Assembly (NCBI GenBank): GCA_025435555.1 | Contig: JAIWWG010000172.1 | Span: 1 to 30,291, forward strand | DNA from: Chytriomyces cf. hyalinus JEL632 | Lineage: Eukaryota > Chytridiomycota > Chytridiomycetes > Chytridiales > Chytriomycetaceae | Direction of reading: 5' to 3' | DNA length: 30,291 bases | Shown here: positions 3,240 to 23,481 of the stretch, in pieces | How the letters are laid out: each line of letters starts with the position of its first letter | How positions within the stretch are numbered: position 1 is the stretch's first letter | The notes under the pieces: generated by a model | What the model was told of the DNA's origin: nothing | The model's database searches: none | What the model saw: only the letters and a program-made list of their open reading frames with translations | Made by a program: the position numbers and the translations under genes

Positions 3240-4247
3240 ATGTCAAAACTGAGGAGCATTTTGGCGACGCATCCCGCGCACTCCTTCCACGGAACAACCG
3301 GCACTGTCCGCCGTCTCGTCAGTCCAAACACTTCCGGCCACGGCGACCTCCTCAAACCACTCGTTCTAATTGACCATGTCCTGGACGCAGACGGCCGCAT
3401 AATCAGTGCAACTCCGTCATCTCCACAAAAAGGAAAGAAGGGTGCATTTGGTTTCGGATACCATCCGCACTCTGGGGTTGCGACGTTGTCGTATCAGCTT
3501 GGGAATGCACTGCGGTACATTGACACCGAGGGTCAGAGGGGAGTGCTGCCGCCACATGGTGTCGAGTGGATGCGCTCGGGAGGTGTGCTTCAACCTATTC
3601 TCTCAATCCTTATCCTGATCATGTGATTGAATGCAATGGTCACAGGAGGTGCTTGGCATTTCGCTGAAGTTGAACCAGTCTCGGCGTCTCAAAAAACCCC
3701 AACCAACTTTACAGGCTTTCAACTTTGGATTGCGCTGCCGCCTGGAGTCGAGGATGGGTCTTCCTTTTCGCAGCTTGTTCCTCCTGAGCAAGTTCCCGAA
3801 CTGTCCGAGAACCAAAACACTTGTACAGTTCGCGTTCTTTCGGGCGTGTATAAGGACCTTGTCTCGCCAATCACAGACCCACCCGCCGATCAGATTGATA
3901 TCTTCGACGTTGCATTGAAGCCAAACGGCGCCGTGTTTGAACACCAATTCCGTGACGGACATGATTCTTCCTGGGCAGTTGTGTATGCTGGTTCTGGCGT
4001 TGTAATCAACGGGAAAACTGTTCCAAACAACGAAGTAGTACTCCTCCAAGGCGGAGGAGATGCTGTGCGCGTGGAGAACACGTCCGAAAGAGAAGACGCG
4101 TTGATCCTGTTGGGCAGTGCTGCACGGCATGAGCACCCGCTTTACACACGGAATGCGAGCGTGCACACCAATCAAAAGTCCATGGACGATGCTTGGAAAC
4201 GCATCAAAACAATTGGAAACGCGCTTCACGCGAAGGGTGACATTTAG
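3240..4247 (+). CDS. Pirin-family cupin protein
   Basis: Pirins are bicupin metal-binding proteins; family members act as nuclear cofactors or quercetinases, and the role here is unknown. Two exons (3240-3582 and 3646-4247, intron 63 nt) give 314 residues, close to the usual size of about 290-320. The first cupin has HPHSGVATLSY and, across the exon junction, WMRSGGGAWHFAE, supplying the histidines and glutamate expected for metal binding in the subfamily with GGGxWHxxE. The pirin C-terminal cupin follows, with GFQLWIALPP in the middle and a conserved tail (NNEVVLLQGGGD). The splice was placed because read-through stops at once and removing GTGTGC...CACAG restores the motif. The gene is divergent from the ABC transporter and followed after 71 bp by a gene on the same strand. 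Confidence 0.92.
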
Positions 4248-5528: not shown

Positions 5529-6444
5529 TTATTGCCGCGTCCAAGCGACAACTGCGACGGCATCGTTGACATCCTTCGGCTTATTCACAACCCAACCCAG
5601 AGACTTCAGCCTCTTCTCGCATCGCTTCTCGGCAACCCACATTGGGTACATTCGTTCGGCCATCCATTTGCTGTAGAGCACTTCAACTCGTTTCAATTTC
5701 GGATGTGTGCCTTTTATGATCGCGTTCTGGACGTTTTGGTGCTTTGCATCGCTGCTATATATAATCAGGCATTCGAGAGAGTGCATGGGCGCAATATGGT
5801 CGAGTCCATCCGGATCATCTAATTGCAGGGTTTTGAGTCCATTGAGTTTTGGCAGTAGCTCAATAAGTGCAGCCGAGAGTTCAATGAGCTTCAGCGTAGA
5901 AACACGCATGTCTTGTATCGCAGATAAATCAACGCCCTCCAGCCCCTCTTCCTCGTCTCTTTCATCATCTGGCTGTAATCTCAGCACTTCGACATCCACT
6001 TTCCACAGCGCCAGCGTCCGCAGGATTGCCACAACCTGATTCTGTGGTGTCACACCCGATTGAATCGTGAGAATGATGCGCCTTGGGAGGAACTGTCTGT
6101 AGCAATGCAAGTGCCGCTCGCAACACAGATCAATCTCAAGTGTGCCTCCGAACCGGTTCAACAACTTTGCGTACGCAATCAAGCTCGCTTCTCCAGATTG
6201 AATCGATTCTAAGTAAGAATCGGGTGGGCATCTCCCTATATCCGTACCCCAGTTCGAAGCCAGGCCAAACAAAACACTCGGCGTTTTCAACGCGATGTTC
6301 CAGAATCATGGACACATCATAGATGGCTTTGGAAAGAGGCTTCAAATGTGGTAGACAGTGGCAGAGATTGAAGATGGAGTGGATATCGAGAAGAGGAACA
6401 AGTCCGTCGACGGTTTCCACCGGCAGGTGTTCGAGGCACGTCAT
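5529..6444 (-). CDS. F-box-like protein, array copy 1, one extra base
   Basis: F-box proteins bring substrates to SCF ubiquitin ligases; target unknown. The ATG at 6444 begins a frame with LEHLPVETVDGLVPLLD, IHSIFNLCHCLPHLKPLSKAIYDVS, an F-box-like N-terminus. After WPGFELG the homologous frame shifts. The second part reads RCPPDSYLESIQSGEAS, LNRFGG, CCERHLHCYRQFLPRRIILTIQ, DLSAIQDMRVSTLKL, HSLECLII, THPKLKRVEV, KSLGWV and ends VAWTRQ-TAA at 5529. The span is 916 nt, one more than a multiple of three. Against copy 2, the extra base lies between 6222 and 6250, in the CTGGGG...ATGCCC stretch. Corrected length would be 304 residues. No intron solves the shift. It may be a pseudogene or an assembly error. 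The F-box call rests on the N-terminal pattern only. Confidence 0.65.
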
Positions 6445-6561
6445 TCGAAACAATTGGATTTGAGCGCAGTACTAGTTAAATGTGTGTCAGTTATCCGAGC
6501 GGCCGTGAGTGCATCAAGTCTGTTTGCAGTTGCGCAGAGACAAGATGGTCGTCTTTTGTCC

Positions 6562-6583
6562 AAAAAAAAAAAAAAAAAAAAAA
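6562..6583 (+). repeat. 22-base A-tract upstream of F-box copy 1
   Basis: Homopolymer of 22 A (T on the gene's strand) about 120 bp upstream of the copy-1 ATG. A similar 17-A run is at 7699-7715 upstream of copy 2. On the coding strand these are T-tracts 5' of the genes, so they are not poly(A) tails of retrocopies; they could act as nucleosome-excluding promoter tracts. Confidence 0.8.
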
Positions 6584-6632
6584 GACATCCATGTATCCCC
6601 CCATCTTGAAGACATAAAAGAGTAGACTGCCT

Positions 6633-7557
6633 TTATTCCCGCGTCCAAGCGACAGCTGAGATGGACTCGTTGATATCCTTCGGCATATCCACAACCCAAC
6701 CAACAGACTTTAGCCGCTTCTCGCATAGCTTCTTGGCAGCCCACATTGTATATCCATCGGTGCTCCATTTACTGTAATGGACTTCAACTCGTTTCAGGTT
6801 CGGATGCGTGTCTTTCATGATCGCGTTCTGAACTTCCTTTTGGTGCTGCGTATCACTGCTGCCAATGATCAGGCATTCGAGAGAACGCATGGTTGCAATA
6901 TGTTCGAATCCAGCCGGATCTCCTAAATGTAGTGTTTTGAGCCCTTTGATTTGAGGCAGATGCTCGTGAAGCGCCACAGACATTTCAAAAAGCTTCAGCG
7001 TATCAACACGCATGCCTTGTATCGCAGAAACATCGACATCTTCCAGCCCGTCATCGCTATCATCTTCCGCTTCATCGTCTGGCTGAAAACTCAGCACTTC
7101 GAGATCCGTCTTCCACAGCGAAAGCGTCCTGAGGATTGCAGCAACTTGATCCGGCGATGTCACACTCAGCTGAATCGTCAAAATGATTCGCCTTGGGAGA
7201 AACTGTCTGTAACAGTGCAAGTGCCGCTCGCAGCACAGCGTAAGATCCATTGCGCCTCCGAACCGGTTCAACATCTTTGCATACTGAATCAAGCTCGCTT
7301 CTCCGGATCGAAACGAATCAAAATAAGATTCGGGCGGGCATTTATCATAGTCTTGACCCAGTTCGAAACGGGGCCAGATATAGTACTCGACATTGTCAAC
7401 ATCCAGGTCCAGGATTGTGCTCGACACGTCGTAGATAGGCTTTGGAGAGAGGTTTGAGATGCGGCAGACAGTGGCAGAGGTTGAAGAGGGAGTTGATGTC
7501 GAGCAAGGGAACCAAGATGTCAATGATTTCGACGGGGAGCGATTCAAGGGACGGCAT
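6633..7557 (-). CDS. F-box-like protein, array copy 2, one extra base
   Basis: Best-preserved member of the array. ATG at 7557 begins MPSLESLPVEIIDILVPLLD followed by INSLFNLCHCLPHLKPLSKA, a good F-box-like helix set. A single extra T on the coding strand (position 7437, between codons GCC and ATC) then breaks the frame; copies 1 and 3 lack it. Beyond it the protein continues IYDVSSTILD, WPRFELG, CPPESYFDSFRSGEAS, LNRFGGAMDLTLCCERHLHCYRQFLPRR, DVSAIQGMRVDTLKLFE, HLPQIKGLKTLHL, THPNLKRVEVHYSKW and VAWTRE-TAA. The central part has a leucine-rich-repeat-like rhythm. Span 925 nt, one more than a multiple of three; corrected length 307 residues. Whether it is expressed as a full protein is open. 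Confidence 0.65.
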
Positions 7558-7698
7558 TCGAAATATTTGGAATCCTTTTTCTGAATGTGCGTCAGTTATA
7601 TCAGCAGCTGTGAATGCTTGCCGTTCCGCAGAAACTCGATTTTGACATCTGAAAGGACCACTTTCTATTCATTCAGACAGTCTGGCAACAGGATAACG

Positions 7699-7715
7699 AA
7701 AAAAAAAAAAAAAAA
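7699..7715 (+). repeat. 17-base A-tract upstream of F-box copy 2
   Basis: Homopolymer of 17 A about 140 bp upstream of the copy-2 ATG on the opposite strand and just downstream of copy 3. Paired with the 22-A tract at 6562-6583. Confidence 0.8.
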
Positions 7716-7742
7716 GAACCCTTCCAACAATAAATAGCTCTT

Positions 7743-8653
7743 TTATTCCCGCGTCCAAGCGACTGCCGAAATGGACTCGCTGACATCCTTTGGCATATGC
7801 ACAACCCAACCCAGAGACTTCAGCCCCTCCTCGCATAGCTTCTTGGCAGCCAACTGTGTATCTGGAATGTGCGCGATTTCCCATTGGTGTAATGCACTTC
7901 AACTCGTTTCAAGTTCGGATGTGTGCCCTTTATGATCGCATTTTGGGCGTTGTATTGGTGCTTTGCGTCGCTGTTTTCTATAATCAGGCATTCGAGAGAA
8001 GGTATGGGTGCGATATGTTCGAATCCGTCCGCATCATCCAATTGCAGTGTTTTGACCCCTTTGAATTGGGGAACTTGCTCAAGAAGCAGCGGCGACACAT
8101 CAAACAGGTTCAACTTGGCAACACGCATGTCTTGTATCGCAGATAGATTGATTTTCTCCAGGTGCTCAATGTCGTAGTCTGGTTGGCACTCATCTGAAAA
8201 TATGCTCAGCTCCTCGACATCCACCTTCCAGAGCGATAGAATCCTCAGCAACGCTTCTACTTGATCCGGCAATGTCACACTCAGCTGAATCGTTAGAATG
8301 AAGCGCCTTGGGAGGAACTGTCTATAGCAATGCAAGTGCCGCTCGCAGCACAGCGTAAGGTCCAATGCACCCCCAAACCGGTTTAATATCGTGGTATACT
8401 GAATCAAGCTCGCATCTCCGGATCGAAACCAGTCAAAATAAGATTCGGGCCGGCAAGAATTATCATAAACTGGGCCAAGTTCGAGGCGGGGCCAGACATT
8501 TCTCATCAGGATTGTGGTCGACACGTCATAGATGGCTTTGGAGAGAGGTTTGAGATAGATCAGACAGTGGCAGAGGTTGAAGAGGGAGTGGAGGTCGAGC
8601 AAGGGAACAAGTCTGTCGATAATTTCCGCTGGGAGGGATTCGAGGGACAGCAT
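7743..8653 (-). CDS. F-box-like protein, array copy 3, C-terminal frameshift
   Basis: ATG at 8653 starts MLSLESLPAEIIDRLVPLLD, LHSLFNLCHCLIYLKPLSKA, the same F-box-like N-terminus as its neighbours, and continues in one frame through WPRLELG, CRPESYFDWFRSGDAS, LCCERHLHCYRQFLPRRFILTIQ, NLSAIQDMRVAKLNLFD and THPNLKRVEVHYTN. About 25 nt later a 5-nt length difference from copy 2 (near 7860-7885) throws it out of frame, and it stops at 7820 after 277 residues. The homologous tail is still present in another frame down to 7743 (LAAKKLCEEGLKSLGWVVHMPKD ... VAWTRE). It is either a truncated but usable protein or an early pseudogene. It is divergent from the SOUL gene across 188 bp. Confidence 0.65.
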
Positions 8654-16952: not shown

Positions 16953-18241
16953 TCATTTTCTGACAGAGGACAGCGATGCCAAATGCGCACGACGCGCCAC
17001 TGGAGGGGCGATGCCAAGCGCGTCTCTTCGCGACTTGCTCGCCGGGTCAAAGTACGGAACCTCCCCCACAGAAGTAGACCGCTCCCCGTATCGATGGTAC
17101 TCGTCAAAATCAAAATCAACTGTGGCAGTGTGGAAGGAGCTTACGATTGTCCCACACTGCCACGTCGTTCACGTTCCACTTGAACCGAACTTGCAAGTCA
17201 TGATTTTGAACACAGAGGTTCAGTAAATGCTCAAGGACAAGGTCGCTTTCATCCTTTGACAGCTCATTGATTCGTTTAGTAAACTCCTTGTTGGCAAACC
17301 TTGTGTGTGCTCATCATAAGTATTAAGTAGCTCACGGATTGGTGGTAGGTAGACTTACACTCCCTTCCACCCAGTCACGGGATTCGTTCGAATGACAGGG
17401 TGCACCGCCGACAAATGGTCGCCAACATTTTCAGGAGACCCGCGTGGACCAGGATTTATATTAACCAGCCCCAGCTGTTGAAGTAGCAGGAATCCGTCGC
17501 CCGTGTGCGTTGCGGTAAGACCTTCAAGGAAGGCTTGGAATGCCGGTGAAAGCCTGTCGTAGACCTCGTACGCACTGGCCCATAACGTGTCTCCGCCTTC
17601 GGGAGGAGACGAACGCAATTTCAATGCAGCATAGTCGGACGGAGCGTTTTCAAAAGTGACACTTTGTTTGGTATGTTTAAGCCGTAATCTTTGCCTTCAA
17701 TGTACTGAAGAAGTGGGGACTTACTCAGAGTGCCACTGAGTAGAATGCAGCTCCGATCTGACATAAGCGCTGTTCCTTTTATCCAACTCCGAAGAAATGA
17801 CATACGCCTCTTGTCCAAACTCGGAAGAAGACTCGCTGACTGGATGTCTGTGAAGGCCACTAGAGGCAGGCTTACCGGCAGCACGACCAAGGCGGTCAAT
17901 AAACTGCTTTTGCTCCTCGAATGTAATGTCCTGGTTTCGAAGGAATACAACGTTGCGCTCGGAGACGAGCACCGCCAAGTCAAGAAGGAGTTCGTCTGAA
18001 TTGGTGGCGTTCAAAATGTCGCGAATTTGGATTCTGGTGGAAAGATGCGCCATTCTCTCAGACGTGTCATATATATCCAATCAATCACATACCCTTGGTC
18101 GAACTCTGTTCCGATGTGAGGCTGCACCTTCCGGTGTGTGTACAGAGTGTCGAGCGAGTAGTTTCGCGACAGCGGTGTGACCTTCGGCGCTTGGCGATCG
18201 CGTTTCAAAGGAGCGAACTCAGAGTCTTTGTTGACAAGCAT
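16953..18241 (-). CDS. TauD/TfdA-type Fe(II)/2-oxoglutarate dioxygenase
   Basis: Non-haem iron dioxygenase of the taurine/sulfonate dioxygenase family, which in fungi releases sulfite from sulfonates; the substrate here is inferred only. Exons 18093-18241, 17725-18033, 17359-17661 and 16953-17299, introns 59, 63 and 59 nt. Landmarks: IGTEFDQGIQIRDIL; LAVLVSERNVVFLRNQ; the iron site QWHSDVTF, whose Asp codon is split by intron 2; SDYAALKLRSSPPEGGDTLWAS; HPVIRTNPVTGWKGVF; VRFKWNVNDVAVWDNR; and FHTATVDFDFDEY carrying the second iron histidine, then RYGERSTSVGEVPYFDP. The last exon has one base too many between WDNR and FHTAT (17135-17147), so the gene as given breaks there. Corrected length would be 368 residues, normal for the family. 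ATG at 18241, divergent from MHYT copy 1. Confidence 0.87.
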
Positions 18242-18453
18242 TGTTGTTCGCGGTTGTTGCTTGGTTTGGTTTTAGTTGTGCGTGAATGCAGTCTGGTTTT
18301 GTAGGTTTCGATTGCGTCATTTTGAGGAACGCGTGACTAAAAGCGTCCCGACCAAATGATCCGTGTATTCACTTTTCCAAGAGGCAAGAAGGGAATCGGT
18401 ACGCGTTGATTTGCGTATTCGGGAAGCAAAGTAGCATGTAAATCTTGCCTTTT
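18242..18453. promoter_or_regulatory. Divergent promoter region, dioxygenase / MHYT copy 1
   Basis: The 212 bp between two opposed ATGs hold both promoters. No defined operator is recognised. Confidence 0.45.
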
Positions 18454-19969
18454 ATGAACGCAACAACCTGCCATCCACGGAACATATCTCCAGGGCTACT
18501 GGGACTGGAAAGTGGCCATCATCTCTCTGGGAATATCCTTCACCGGATCTATATCAGGCATTCTCTTCAACGAGATGAAGGGGAGGTAAGAGTGAAACAC
18601 TTTATATTCAAACCGCAGCCATTCAATTGATCTCCAACTCAATTGACACAGATCCGACCCACCCATATCTCCACTCTATTCCACCGCGCTACTCTTTCTG
18701 TCCGCGTTTTCCATCTCCGTACGCGCCATATTCATGATGCATTTTGTGGGCATGACCGCATTCCCGCTCTTTCACCCGAACGGGATGCGTGTACCAATGT
18801 TCTTTGATCCCGTTCTGACAATTATAAGTGCAGTAGTGTGCTTGGTTGTGGTCTTGGGGGCATTCCATTTCGCTTCGCACGATGCGCATTGGAACGACAT
18901 TATTGAGGAGCGCATGAAGCTCGTCCAGCGAATCTACGCCAAAAGCGAAGCAAAGAGACTTGGACTCAAGAGGAGGAAGAAGGCAAAAAACGTAACAAAA
19001 TCCTCGCATCAACAGCAACAGCAGCAAGTGAGTTTCTTTTGGCTTGAAACTTGTGGACGGATATAAATTAAGCACACTCCCAAAAAACAAAAAAGCCACT
19101 CCTTCTCAAAACAGCCAGAATGATGAGTCCGGTTAAAGATAAAAACCGAGCCTCTGTTCAGACGGAGGATTATCGTCCTCACACTTCATCGCGTCCAGAT
19201 TCAAGCGAAGATGAGAACGGCCCATCGGAAAACTCTGTCCAGCAAGAAACCGAAGCAATCGCAGAAAATAACATTCCTTTCGAAAACAGCGCTCTCTTGG
19301 ATCCAGCCATGCAATTCACCAAGTTTGACCTGCAAATTATGATTCTCTTTGATCGTCCTTGGAGAATACTGGTTTCCGGAGTATTTGTTGCGCTGGCCGT
19401 GTTGTGTATGCATCACTTGGGCCTTCATTCAATCCGAATGGAAGCTCGCTATGAGTTTGATATGGGCCTTGTCGTTTTAAGCGCGTTGATTGCGCTCGTT
19501 GCAGCGACAGCTGGAATGTTTATCATTTTCCGAGTGCAGCCTTATTATCCGCATGATAATGTGAAAGTGATGGCGTCAATAGTGATTGCAATTGCCGTCA
19601 ACGGCATGCACTACACAGGAATGGCTGCGCTTCGGTACACTTACGCGCCTGATCCAAACTTTAACACGGCTGGGTTAATCGATGGGTCCATATTGGTCAA
19701 ATACATGCTTTACTTGGAGGTGGGTGCAAGCAGCGTTGCACAAAAGACGTATCATCTTATTCAACTGTTGAAATCGCCAGGTTGCCTTCAAAGTGGTGTC
19801 TGAAGTCATGGTACGCCGCGACATGACGGCAAGCATTTTGCTCCTCCGGGCAAGGGTGAAAGCTGCCGGCAGTTCGATATCACAGTCTGGGAAGAGCGGT
19901 GCGTCGTCTAAGGGTGCGTCATCCAAAGGCGCGTCGTCGAGCCCAAGTATCCGATCCAGTGGGTTCTAG
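18454..19969 (+). CDS. MHYT-domain seven-helix membrane protein, copy 1
   Basis: MHYT domains are membrane sensors, proposed to bind copper and sense gases, usually fused to bacterial signalling enzymes; no enzyme domain is present here. Exons 18454-18585, 18652-19027, 19096-19719 and 19781-19969 give about 439 residues. Helices: VAIISLGISFTGSISGILF; ALLFLSAFSISVRAIFMMHFVGMTA; LTIISAVVCLVVVLGAFHFA; WRILVSGVFVALAVLCMHHLGLHSI; MGLVVLSALIALVAATAGMFIIF; VKVMASIVIAIAVNGMHYTGMAAL; and one near the C-terminus. Three motifs carry the Met-His signature: MMHFVGM, MHHLGLH, MHYTGM. Between helices 3 and 4 sits a charged loop of about 170 residues with a basic helix, a Gln run and Ser/Glu-rich sequence. 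The tail is Ser/Gly-rich with GASSKGASSKGASS. Exon 1 is one base too long: the ATG frame shifts between MNATTC and GYWDWKV (about 18469-18500). Confidence 0.85.
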
Positions 19970-20001
19970 CAACATCATTGCATAATCGGGTCTTTAGTAG
20001 C

Positions 20002-20007
20002 AATAAA
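20002..20007 (+). terminator. poly(A) signal of MHYT copy 1
   Basis: AATAAA 33 nt past the stop of copy 1, inside the 137-bp gap to copy 2. Confidence 0.55.
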
Positions 20008-20106
20008 TGAAGCCATTTCCGCTGAGGTTTACGTTTTCAGAGACAATCTTGAAAATTGTGGTGACGTAAAACTCCAATAAACTTTGGCGGCACAATCCTC
20101 TTCACA

Positions 20107-21571
20107 ATGAACCAAACCGCGAACGATGTCCAAGCAGGAACAGCTCTGGTCGCGGTCTGGCAGCTGGAGAACGTGATGGTATCATACGGAATCTCCTGCC
20201 TGGGTTCGCTTTCAGCCGTCTTCTTTAACGAAATGAGGGGGAGGTGTGCCCTGCAAAAGAATATCTCCGATTTTTTCGGCTGACAGTGCCCATGTTCAGG
20301 TCTGACCCGCCTATTCCACCGCTCTATTCGTTCTTCCTTCTCATCGCCTCGGCTCTCTCGATATCGCTACGCGCCATATTCATGATGCACTTCGTGGGGA
20401 TGACTGCCGTAGCCTTATACCTTCCCACCGGGGAACGCGTGCCCATGTACTTTGACCCGGGACTGACAGCCATCAGTGCCATCATATGCTCGCTTGTTGT
20501 GATGTGGGCTTTTTATTTCGCGTCTCAGGACGAACACTGGAACACGATTGTTGAAAAGCGACTGCAGCTGGCTCAAAAGATTTACGCCAAGGCCGAGGCC
20601 AAGAAGATGAAAATCGAACAGAAACGAAGGTTGGCCAAAAAGAATACAAAAATTAACAAACGCCCTTTGATCGAAGAGAATGAAAGTGGGAGCTCGGATA
20701 CGCAGCAGGTGCTTTTTTTTTTTTTTTTTTTTTTTTGTGGCGTCATCACCGAGTGAACACACCACCGCAGCACGCGCAGTCCCGGCAAGGAAACTCGACT
20801 GCAGGCAATCGAAACCGAGTACTCATTGTCCGAAACAATATCAACGACACAAAAGCTCCCGTCGTCGAAACGCGTGTTCGCATCGACCCACCACCCGAAA
20901 CAGCAGTAATCATTCCAGGAAAACGGCGAACGAAACTCGGACATTCAAATCATGATTCTCTTTGACCGACCCTGGAGAATCGTCATCTCGGGTCTCTTTG
21001 TTGCCGCCTCAGTTCTGGCCATGCACCATCTCGGCATCCATTCGATACGAATGCAAGCTAGTTACGATTTTGATATGAACATTGTTTTGCTGAGTGCGGT
21101 GATTGCGCTTGTTGCTGCGACGGCGGGGATGTTTATCGTGTTTAGGGTCTTGCCGTATTATCCGAATGATATCGTGAAAGTGATTGCGTCCTTCATTATC
21201 GCGCTGGCTGTCAACGGCATGCATTTTACCGGCATGGCTGCGCTGCGGTATTCGTATGCTCCAGACCCTTCCTTCAGTGCTGACGGACTGATTGATGGAT
21301 TTACTTTGGCAGAGAGTATCTTGTATGTGGAGGTAAGTTGGGGAAATCAAATGTCCAGTGTGTGTCTGTTCCGCTGACACGCCAAACCTCGCAGGTTATT
21401 TTAAAGATTGTCTCGGAAACCATCATCCGACGCGACATGTCCAATGTGATTTTTCTCTTGAAGGGGCAGCTGAGGGCGATAAACGGAAGCACGGACTCGA
21501 GCAAGAAAAGCTCTGCTGTGAACGCCAGCGTATTTTCAAACGGTAGCATCTCTCAAAGGACGCAGCAGTGA
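20107..21571 (+). CDS. MHYT-domain seven-helix membrane protein, copy 2
   Basis: Tandem paralogue of copy 1 with identical exon plan: 20107-20243, 20300-20708, 20771-21332, 21395-21571, about 427 residues. Helix and motif order match: VSYGISCLGSLSAVFF; IASALSISLRAIFMMHFVGMTA; LTAISAIICSLVVMWAFYFAS; WRIVISGLFVAASVLAMHHLGIHSI; IVLLSAVIALVAATAGMFIVF; VKVIASFIIALAVNGMHFTGMAAL. The third motif is MHFTGM instead of MHYTGM. The loop between helices 3 and 4 is very basic at first (KMKIEQKRRLAKKNTKINKR) and diverges from copy 1 afterwards, while the membrane parts are closely alike. Exon 3 has one extra base near 20935-20945: KLG and then IQIMILFDRPW are in different frames, against KFDLQIMILFDRPW in copy 1. 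Intron 2 contains a 25-T run beginning five bases into the intron. Confidence 0.85.
20713..20737 (+). repeat. 25-base T-tract inside intron 2 of MHYT copy 2
   Basis: Pure T run in a 62-nt intron (20709-20770). It follows the GTGC donor almost directly, so it is next to the 5' splice site and not at the usual polypyrimidine position near the acceptor. Confidence 0.85.
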
Positions 21572-21937: not shown

Positions 21938-23481
21938 TCAAGACGCTTCCGTGACATTATTTGTCAAAAACTCAGGCCCACTCGTCTTTTCTAAATGAAC
22001 ATCGTGTTTCTCCTCAGACCCAATGTCCCTTAAATCCCGCATATTGGTTTCCGGCAGAAAAACAAGGCCAACCACAGTACACAATCCCATAATACCAATC
22101 GGGTAAAACAAGCCCCCAAACGTGCTCCCGGTTGAAGCTGAAATCGAAGCACTAACAACCCCTTGAATCCCACCAATCACTCCGAATCCAAGATGGTATG
22201 ACGTTGCTGTTCCAATAAACCGAGTGGACGTTGGAAACAGTTCTGCAAGAAATGCAGCAACGGGTCCGTATGAGATGGCTGCGGACATGATCAAGATCCA
22301 GATGCAGAAAGACATCATGACGGGACTGTGGTTGTCACGGTAGACGGGCCCGGGTTTGTTGTTTTCAAAGGGTCGGTAGTTGTAAATTCCGAGGTAGCAT
22401 GGGTATGTGAGAATAGCGCCAAGTGCGACTCCAGTTATCATCAGCGTTCTCCGACCAAATCGGTCACTCAGAAACGCGAAAAGGGCAAAAAATGGACATG
22501 CAATCAGGACGGGGACCAGCAGAATCTTGTACGCGTCAATCAAAGGAACTCCGAGACTGAGTACAAATGTAAGAGGGTACGCTTGAGAAACTTGCGCCAA
22601 GACTCCCTGTCCCATGCATGTTCCAAAGATTGCCAACAGAATTTGAAGCCAGTTTGCAGGTTTAGACAGCATTTGCAGGTACTGTGTAGTGGTTTTGGCA
22701 ACTGCACCAGACTCTTTGGCTTCAGTGTAAATCGGCGATTCCAACAGCTTTCGTCGCGCGTACAGAGAGACAAGAATCAACAGGAAAGAGATCAGGAACG
22801 GAATGCGCCAGCCGAAAGATACAAATTTCTCGGTTCCAAGGGTAACACGGAAAATAAGGCACATTGCCAAGGCAAGACCAAGACCAAGCTGAAGGGATAG
22901 AGAGAGAAAATTGAGTATTGCGAAACCAACATTTCGACAAAAAAAGCTTCTCACCGGTGCCATAACCTGCAATACACTCGTGTATCGACCGCGTTGGTCT
23001 ATAGGAGCATGTTCTACAATATAACTGATGGCTCCGGCATACTCTCCTCCCAGCGCGAGTCCCTGAATCACGCGAAGCACGATCAACCCAGCCCCAGCGG
23101 ATGAACCCACCATTGAAATCGTGGGAAGACATCCACATAGGGTCGTGGAAAGTCCCATCAGAAGCAGTGTGGCCATGAAAATGACCTTGCGTCCGTAGAT
23201 GTCACCCAACCAGCCAAACAGAATGGCTCCAATTGGGCGAAACAGGAAGCCGATTGCATAAGTGGCGAGCCAAGTAATTGTGGCTGCTGATTCGGTTCCT
23301 GAAGAACGAATGCATGATGTTGCGGGTCAGCGTGTGTGGGTGCCGGGGGATGGAGACAGGGACGGTTACCGGTGTAGAACTGGGTTGCCAGCGTGGACTG
23401 CAGGAACAGATAGACGTAGAAGTCGTACCACTCGATGAGCGTTCCGAGACAGGTCGCGGCAATGATGGTCACGATGTGCAT
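21938..23481 (-). CDS. MHS-type major facilitator (metabolite:H+ symporter)
   Basis: Twelve-helix plasma-membrane symporter of the MFS metabolite:H+ symporter (MHS) group, whose known members are mostly bacterial carriers of organic acids, betaine or citrate; the substrate here is unknown. Exons 23370-23481, 22955-23298 and 21938-22888 give 468 residues, typical length. The N-terminus has TLIEWYDFYVYLF, the MHS hallmark of helix 1. Next come ATYAIGFLFRPIGAILFGWLGDIYGRK with the MFS loop motif, RVIQGLALGGEYAGAISYIVEHAP in helix 4-5, SFGWRIPFLISFLLILVSLYARRKLLESP, FAFLSDRFGRRTLMITG as the second-half repeat of the loop motif, and GPVAAFLAELFPTSTRFIGTATSYHLGFGVIGG. Introns (71 and 66 nt) look like those of neighbouring genes, so it is integrated, not contamination. 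Only 87 bp separate its ATG from the upstream ORC5 stop. Confidence 0.9.

Follow-up and report, generated by a model that had tools for sequence, protein, structure and literature searches.

CoxC of Afipia carboxidovorans needs copper for CO sensing, and bacterial MHYT domains are mostly fused to signalling domains, according to the report that describes them (PMC11347149). For fungi, a survey of Aspergillus fumigatus counted 161 seven-TM proteins, and its appendix lists AFUA_5G10140 as an 'MHYT domain signaling protein' (PMC3576715); by annotation this is likewise a fungal MHYT protein. The MHYT histidine kinase of Taphrina (PMC4007546) also places the domain in a fungus, but fused to a histidine kinase, whereas the seven models described below are without a kinase domain. 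Titles and the starts of abstracts, mostly from outside subscription journals, disclosed no work devoted to stand-alone MHYT proteins of fungi.

Here we describe two genes, g1 and g2, which lie in tandem on the forward strand of the window, that is, the whole stretch of DNA analysed, a single contig (C82) of 30,291 bases in a genome of 37.8 Mb and 242 contigs. They are members of an already known family, stand-alone MHYT proteins being known in bacteria and annotated in Aspergillus. From the combined analysis we put at about an even chance the proposal that g1 and g2 are stand-alone seven-helix MHYT proteins of a fungal clade, working as copper-dependent gas or redox sensors whose output would pass through the flanks of a cytosolic loop.

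The tandem pair and its paralogues

Genome profile searches found the Fungal_trans family at 13 places and the flagellar family Radial_spoke on three contigs; these matches most likely indicate a fungus with swimming spores, the zoosporic label coming from this one flagellar family. Two similar copies of the radial-spoke genes, on contigs C231 and C182, hint at a partly duplicated genome or at an assembly that contains two haplotypes. Neither Rfam nor tRNA scans gave a match in the window, and a bacterial promoter/terminator scan of positions 18000-18500, not meant for fungi, found nothing. The pair is flanked by two minus-strand ORFs, one TauD-like dioxygenase (17721-18080) and one sugar/MFS transporter (21938-23209). 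Elsewhere on the minus strand of the window (5529-8653), three adjacent ORFs share a stretch around CCERHLHCYRQFLPRR and make up a tandem gene family.

The first-pass annotation had read the locus as a tandem pair of MHYT genes, and both main exons of g1 and of g2 indeed match PF03707 (E 2.7e-9 to 1.3e-7). These values, together with the E of 1.5e-20 obtained over three stretches when the spliced g2 model is compared with Pfam, argue that the matches are not due to chance. The pair is not alone, however: the whole-genome profile search gave at least 14 MHYT (PF03707) matches in at least seven genes, all over the curated cut-off, the genes beyond g1 and g2 lying one each on contigs C123, C70, C134, C205 and C199. 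When the first 168 residues of C70 served as a protein query (E ≤10), the same seven genes were recovered. The exons of all models were joined by eye at GT and AG, and two of the acceptors used, one in g1 and one in C70, are not pyrimidine-AG. All seven spliced models match Pfam MHYT; the open proteins have 542 (C123), 549 (C70), 409 (C134), 411 (C205) and 411 (C199) residues.

In the spliced model of g1, helix 1 is encoded at 18494..18585, with an uncertain protein start. The next exon (18652..19027; PF03707 E 1.4e-8 at 18725-18889) encodes helices 2 and 3 and the start of the loop, and carries motif 1, MMHFVGM, at 18734-18754. It is followed by an exon for the rest of the loop, helices 4 to 6 and the start of helix 7 (19096..19719; PF03707 E 9.4e-9 at 19393-19542), which has its left edge at 19096 or 19115 in two splice versions and carries motif 2, MHHLGLH (19408-19428), and motif 3, MHYTGM (19606-19623). 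The last exon (19781..19969) supplies the end of helix 7, a C-terminal helix and a tail. Either of the two possible loop splices leaves an open frame between 18494 and 19969. The region first described begins at 18454, but the ATG there is not in the frame of helix 1; in the helix-1 frame a stop lies just upstream and there is no ATG before the helix. Putative upstream exons can be modelled, and the true start of g1 is therefore uncertain.

The first exon of g2 in the spliced model (20107..20243) encodes helix 1, and the second (20300..20708; PF03707 E 2.7e-9 at 20373-20537) helices 2 and 3 and the start of the loop, with motif 1, MMHFVGM, at 20382-20402. In the open model helices 4 to 6 and the start of helix 7 come from 20919..21332 (PF03707 E 1.3e-7 at 21009-21152), with motif 2, MHHLGIH, at 21021-21041 and motif 3, MHFTGM, at 21219-21236; the spliced gene closes with an exon for the end of helix 7, the C-terminal helix, the tail and the stop (21395..21571). 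The open model has 378 residues and ends at 21571, the same end as in the first-pass annotation. A long T run at 20709-20736 falls inside a g2 intron as modelled, and another inside the first intron of the C70 gene (L010) as modelled.

The tree, for which the 80 bacterial rows were thinned by identity to 44, places the seven fungal proteins in a single clade (branch support 100/100), separated from those 44 rows by 2.47 + 0.93 changes per column. Within the clade g2 joins the dispersed trio C134, C205 and C199 (99/92), and g1 stands outside that group. Because g2 groups with the trio, a recent tandem duplication giving rise to g1 and g2 is rejected.

In the trio (L011, L012 and L013) a single segment is present three times, with identities of 93-95% over the MHYT gene and 97-99.5% over the next gene. 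The MHYT gene of the trio, which has Tyr in motif 1, immediately precedes a gene that, in C134, the copy scanned, encodes two HR1 repeats and a C2 domain, and a Pkinase_C match is found about 4 kb downstream in each of the three; these matches make protein kinase C the probable identity of the neighbour. Fusion of the trio MHYT protein to this HR1-HR1-C2 neighbour is ruled out, the MHYT models reaching a stop first. Between the MHYT and kinase genes of L011, at about 3775-3930, there is a repeat of some 155 bases, which recurs at 75-89% identity in at least eight other places of the genome and is perhaps a short mobile element.

The helix bundle and its bacterial relatives

A profile of helices 4-7 gave at least 594 bacterial stretches, at least 562 of which encode relatives. 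The bacterial set was picked by the patterns GMHYTGM and VAATAGMF and then by best score, the best 80 of the 562 being kept; given this choice, the counts of 0/76 and 0/80 reported below are valid for that set only. The helix 4-7 alignment omits L042 and L043, which had been misplaced. MHYT matches were also listed in 18 bacterial genomes, apart from the comparisons below, and a scan of 158 bacterial stretches with fungal-specific patterns confirmed no relative. Each of the seven fungal proteins can be aligned to bacterial MHYT domains from helix 1 to helix 7, at about 27-30% identity for the best bacterial rows.

The three Met-His motifs noticed at first in g1 and g2 are all present in both, and also in C70 and C123 (four of the seven fungal proteins); in C134, C205 and C199 the motif-1 His is replaced by Tyr. 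The His of motif 2 and that of motif 3 are kept in all seven fungal proteins and in all of the best 80 of the 562 bacterial relatives. The initial count of seven helices stands in so far as g2 and C70 show seven hydropathy peaks, but helix 7 is weakly hydrophobic: its hydropathy is 1.33-1.71 in five of the seven fungal models, whereas the 80 bacterial proteins have a median of 2.55 and go no lower than 2.01. This weakness may allow a sixth-helix topology. The inner loop is basic in the seven models (net charge +4 to +9), which fits an N-terminus outside and agrees with the positive-inside rule.

Searches of Protein Data Bank chains gave no sequence relative, at E ≤1 with one alignment and at E ≤10 with another. 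AlphaFold2 models were obtained for a bacterial stand-alone protein, L076 (mean pLDDT 92.6, pTM 0.90), and for the g2 exon with helices 4-6 and the start of helix 7 (mean pLDDT 85.9, pTM 0.70). In both, every motif His lies five or six residues short of where its helix ends, a predicted depth compatible with a three-His site.

Several residues are common to the fungal proteins and differ from the bacterial rows. Six residues before the motif-1 His, in helix 2, all seven fungal proteins have Arg (0/76 bacterial rows), and three residues before the same His the fungi have Phe where the bacterial rows have Trp (76/76); both counts were made by motif and leave out L025, L031, L045 and L084, in which motif 1 was not recognised. 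In the alignment, 79 of the 80 bacterial rows have W in the Trp column and one has a gap. In helix 7, whose alignment is less certain than that of helices 2-6, the column of g2 E320 is Glu in 7/7 fungal and 0/80 bacterial rows, and the column of E328 has Glu in none of the 79 bacterial rows counted out of 80. Asp, Glu, Lys or Arg in the helix-7 core occurs in three of the 80 bacterial rows. These columns point to a possible Arg-Glu pair inside the helix bundle of the fungal MHYT proteins.

The first-pass annotation had seen no fused output domain and had taken its absence for a eukaryotic redesign. The first of these observations is borne out: GGDEF, EAL, LytTR and kinase domains are absent from all seven models (Pfam, E ≤0.1), in which the single non-MHYT Pfam match is TfoX_C in one member (0.071). 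The histidine-kinase model NF038348 of NCBIfam matches all seven, but g2 scores 56.4 bits with a cut-off of 450 and covers profile positions 106-243 of 574 only. An output domain overlooked in the gene models is accordingly rejected, the Pfam and NCBIfam scans of the seven having found none, though a separate gene may supply an output partner. The interpretation as redesign fares less well. Eleven short closed ORFs occur among the best 80 bacterial relatives, and of the ten scanned (L092 was left out) nine have MHYT only and one has GGDEF; together with the seven fungal models, these nine show that a catalytic domain is not carried by all homologues. Since bacterial stand-alone relatives exist, the stand-alone form is not new by itself, and the lack of a fused domain gives no support to a eukaryotic redesign. 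What survives is a narrower form of the claim, limited to the helix 3-4 insert, the charges in helices 2 and 7 and Phe where bacteria have Trp, all common to the seven paralogues and lacking in the bacterial rows compared.

The helix 3-4 insert and the state of the two genes

As had been proposed, the insert sits between helices 3 and 4 and, judging from the motif spacings of the seven fungal proteins, it is confined there. The spacing of motifs 1 and 2 is 142-314 residues in the fungal models versus 63-64 in those rows from bacteria for which both motifs are shown; the spacing of motifs 2 and 3 is 66 in fungi and 61-69 in bacteria. The length of about 170 residues first given for the loop has to be revised: the modelled loop has 122 residues in g1 and 63 in g2, and 118-120 in the trio, 228 in C123 and 234 in C70. 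The loops of the latter two are rich in Ser, Thr and Pro (28-29%).

The contrast between a conserved core and a fast loop holds good for g1 and g2, which are 62% identical in helices 1-3 and 68% in helices 4-7, against 27% over the 59 aligned positions of the loop. Within the loop, conservation is uneven. Among g1, g2, C70 and C134 the helix-3 extension is 55% identical and the segment preceding helix 4 is 74% identical, while identity in the distal loop, counted over the columns filled in g2, is 18%. With conserved flanks around a fast middle, the flanks look like a shared contact. In the same four proteins identity is 45% for helix 7 and 44% for the C-terminal helix, which is moderately but not specially conserved.

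Comparison of g2 with the trio gives dN/dS values of 0.16-0.19 in both core halves, and the core of g2 is under purifying selection; the aligned loop gives 0.33-0.39. Between C70 and C123 the values are 0.03-0.05 for the core and 0.15 for the loop. Within the trio they are 0.11-0.41 for the core and, from few changes, 0.86-1.76 for the loop. In most comparisons that involve g1, dS is saturated.

The 210-base intron of the open g2 model contains a coding-like block at 20771-20938, 56 codons that resemble the coding loop of the trio, in which loop and helix 4 belong to one open exon. Over the last twelve codons of the block there are eight to nine third-position but one to three first- or second-position differences from the trio. 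The block is offset by one base from the frame of helix 4, and the g2 frame stays open if the intron takes it out. The offset may reflect decay, an assembly error or true splicing, all three alike. Considered along with the start of g1, it means that the two genes of the window may not both be working.

It is accordingly worth asking whether g1 and g2 are decaying, damaged copies of a family in which C70 and C123 are the working genes. The out-of-frame ATG of g1, the one-base offset of the g2 loop block and the simple open models available for C70 and C123 speak for decay. We nevertheless hold it to be unlikely, in view of the low dN/dS of the g2 core relative to the trio, of the uninterrupted g1 frame and of a fully open splice model for g2; assembly errors, moreover, may explain both flaws.

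A proposed role and its place among known systems

Our best guess, by homology to CoxC, is that the fungal pair would act as a copper-dependent gas or redox sensor. With the N-terminus outside, the Met-His motifs would be placed close to the outer tips of helices 2, 4 and 6, at the depth predicted by the models, and could together hold copper, a topology and a metal suggested by bacterial MHYT proteins. The copper may bind or react with a small gas (CO, O2 or NO), as the CO and copper dependence of CoxC would suggest. The bundle would then shift, the invariant helix-2 Arg and helix-7 Glu being candidates for the moving part, and partners on the inner face might read the helix-3 extension and the segment before helix 4, perhaps also the helix after helix 7. 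Several findings weigh against this model: helix 7 is weakly hydrophobic, the C-terminal helix is not specially conserved, the motif-1 His is absent in three of the seven paralogues, the pair in the window may not both be working genes, and identity to bacterial proteins is about 27-30% at best.

These proteins could instead handle copper or redox equivalents in the membrane (storage, delivery or oxidation) without any signalling, with the Met-His motifs as a metal site while Arg and Glu help to move charge. The retention of the motifs and the lack of an output domain in the seven models suit such a role, and charged residues within helices 2 and 7 are odd for a pure sensor. Yet most relatives described from bacteria carry a fused signalling domain and CoxC is a demonstrated sensor (PMC11347149), and the conservation of the cytosolic flanks is suggestive of a surface for docking; we therefore judge this alternative unlikely. 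That the fast-evolving helix 3-4 loop is itself the output, as the first-pass annotation had it, seems to us very doubtful, for although no other loop holds the insert and the C70 and C123 loops are rich in Ser, Thr and Pro, the distal part is poorly conserved among the four representatives, its length runs from 63 to 234 residues, and g2 may splice out much of it. For the proposed sensor, the sequence conservation makes signalling through the loop flanks (55% and 74% identical) most likely, ahead of the fast loop middle (18%).

A bolder extension, which we consider improbable, is that fungal MHYT proteins form a distinct receptor class: seven-helix copper gas receptors that lack a fused output. 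Their charge pair of helix-2 Arg and helix-7 Glu, absent from the bacterial rows compared, would replace the bacterial Gly/Trp packing beside the metal site and couple that site to cytosolic surfaces at the helix 3-4 loop, much as in GPCR-like receptors. In a zoosporic fungus several such receptors might guide movement with respect to oxygen, NO or CO.

As matters stand, a known and little-studied family has been extended. If the sensor interpretation holds, fungi possess bacterial-type membrane gas sensors without a fused output, the fungal-only residues and conserved loop flanks make a short list for mutagenesis, and the question of how MHYT signals without an enzyme of its own becomes testable.

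The nearest bacterial counterparts include the stand-alone proteins L033, L036, L052, L063, L076, L088 and L100, which, like the fungal ones, consist of MHYT alone with all seven helices aligned. They differ in being without the long insert between helices 3 and 4 (the motif 1-2 spacing of L076 is 63), and the bacterial rows have neither the helix-2 Arg nor the Glu of column E320, with Trp where the fungi have Phe. CoxC, compared here by its published description (PMC11347149), resembles g1 and g2 in having three Met-His motifs in an MHYT domain of seven helices, the number predicted for the fungal pair; it carries a LytTR DNA-binding domain, whereas g1 and g2 have none but possess the helix 3-4 insert.
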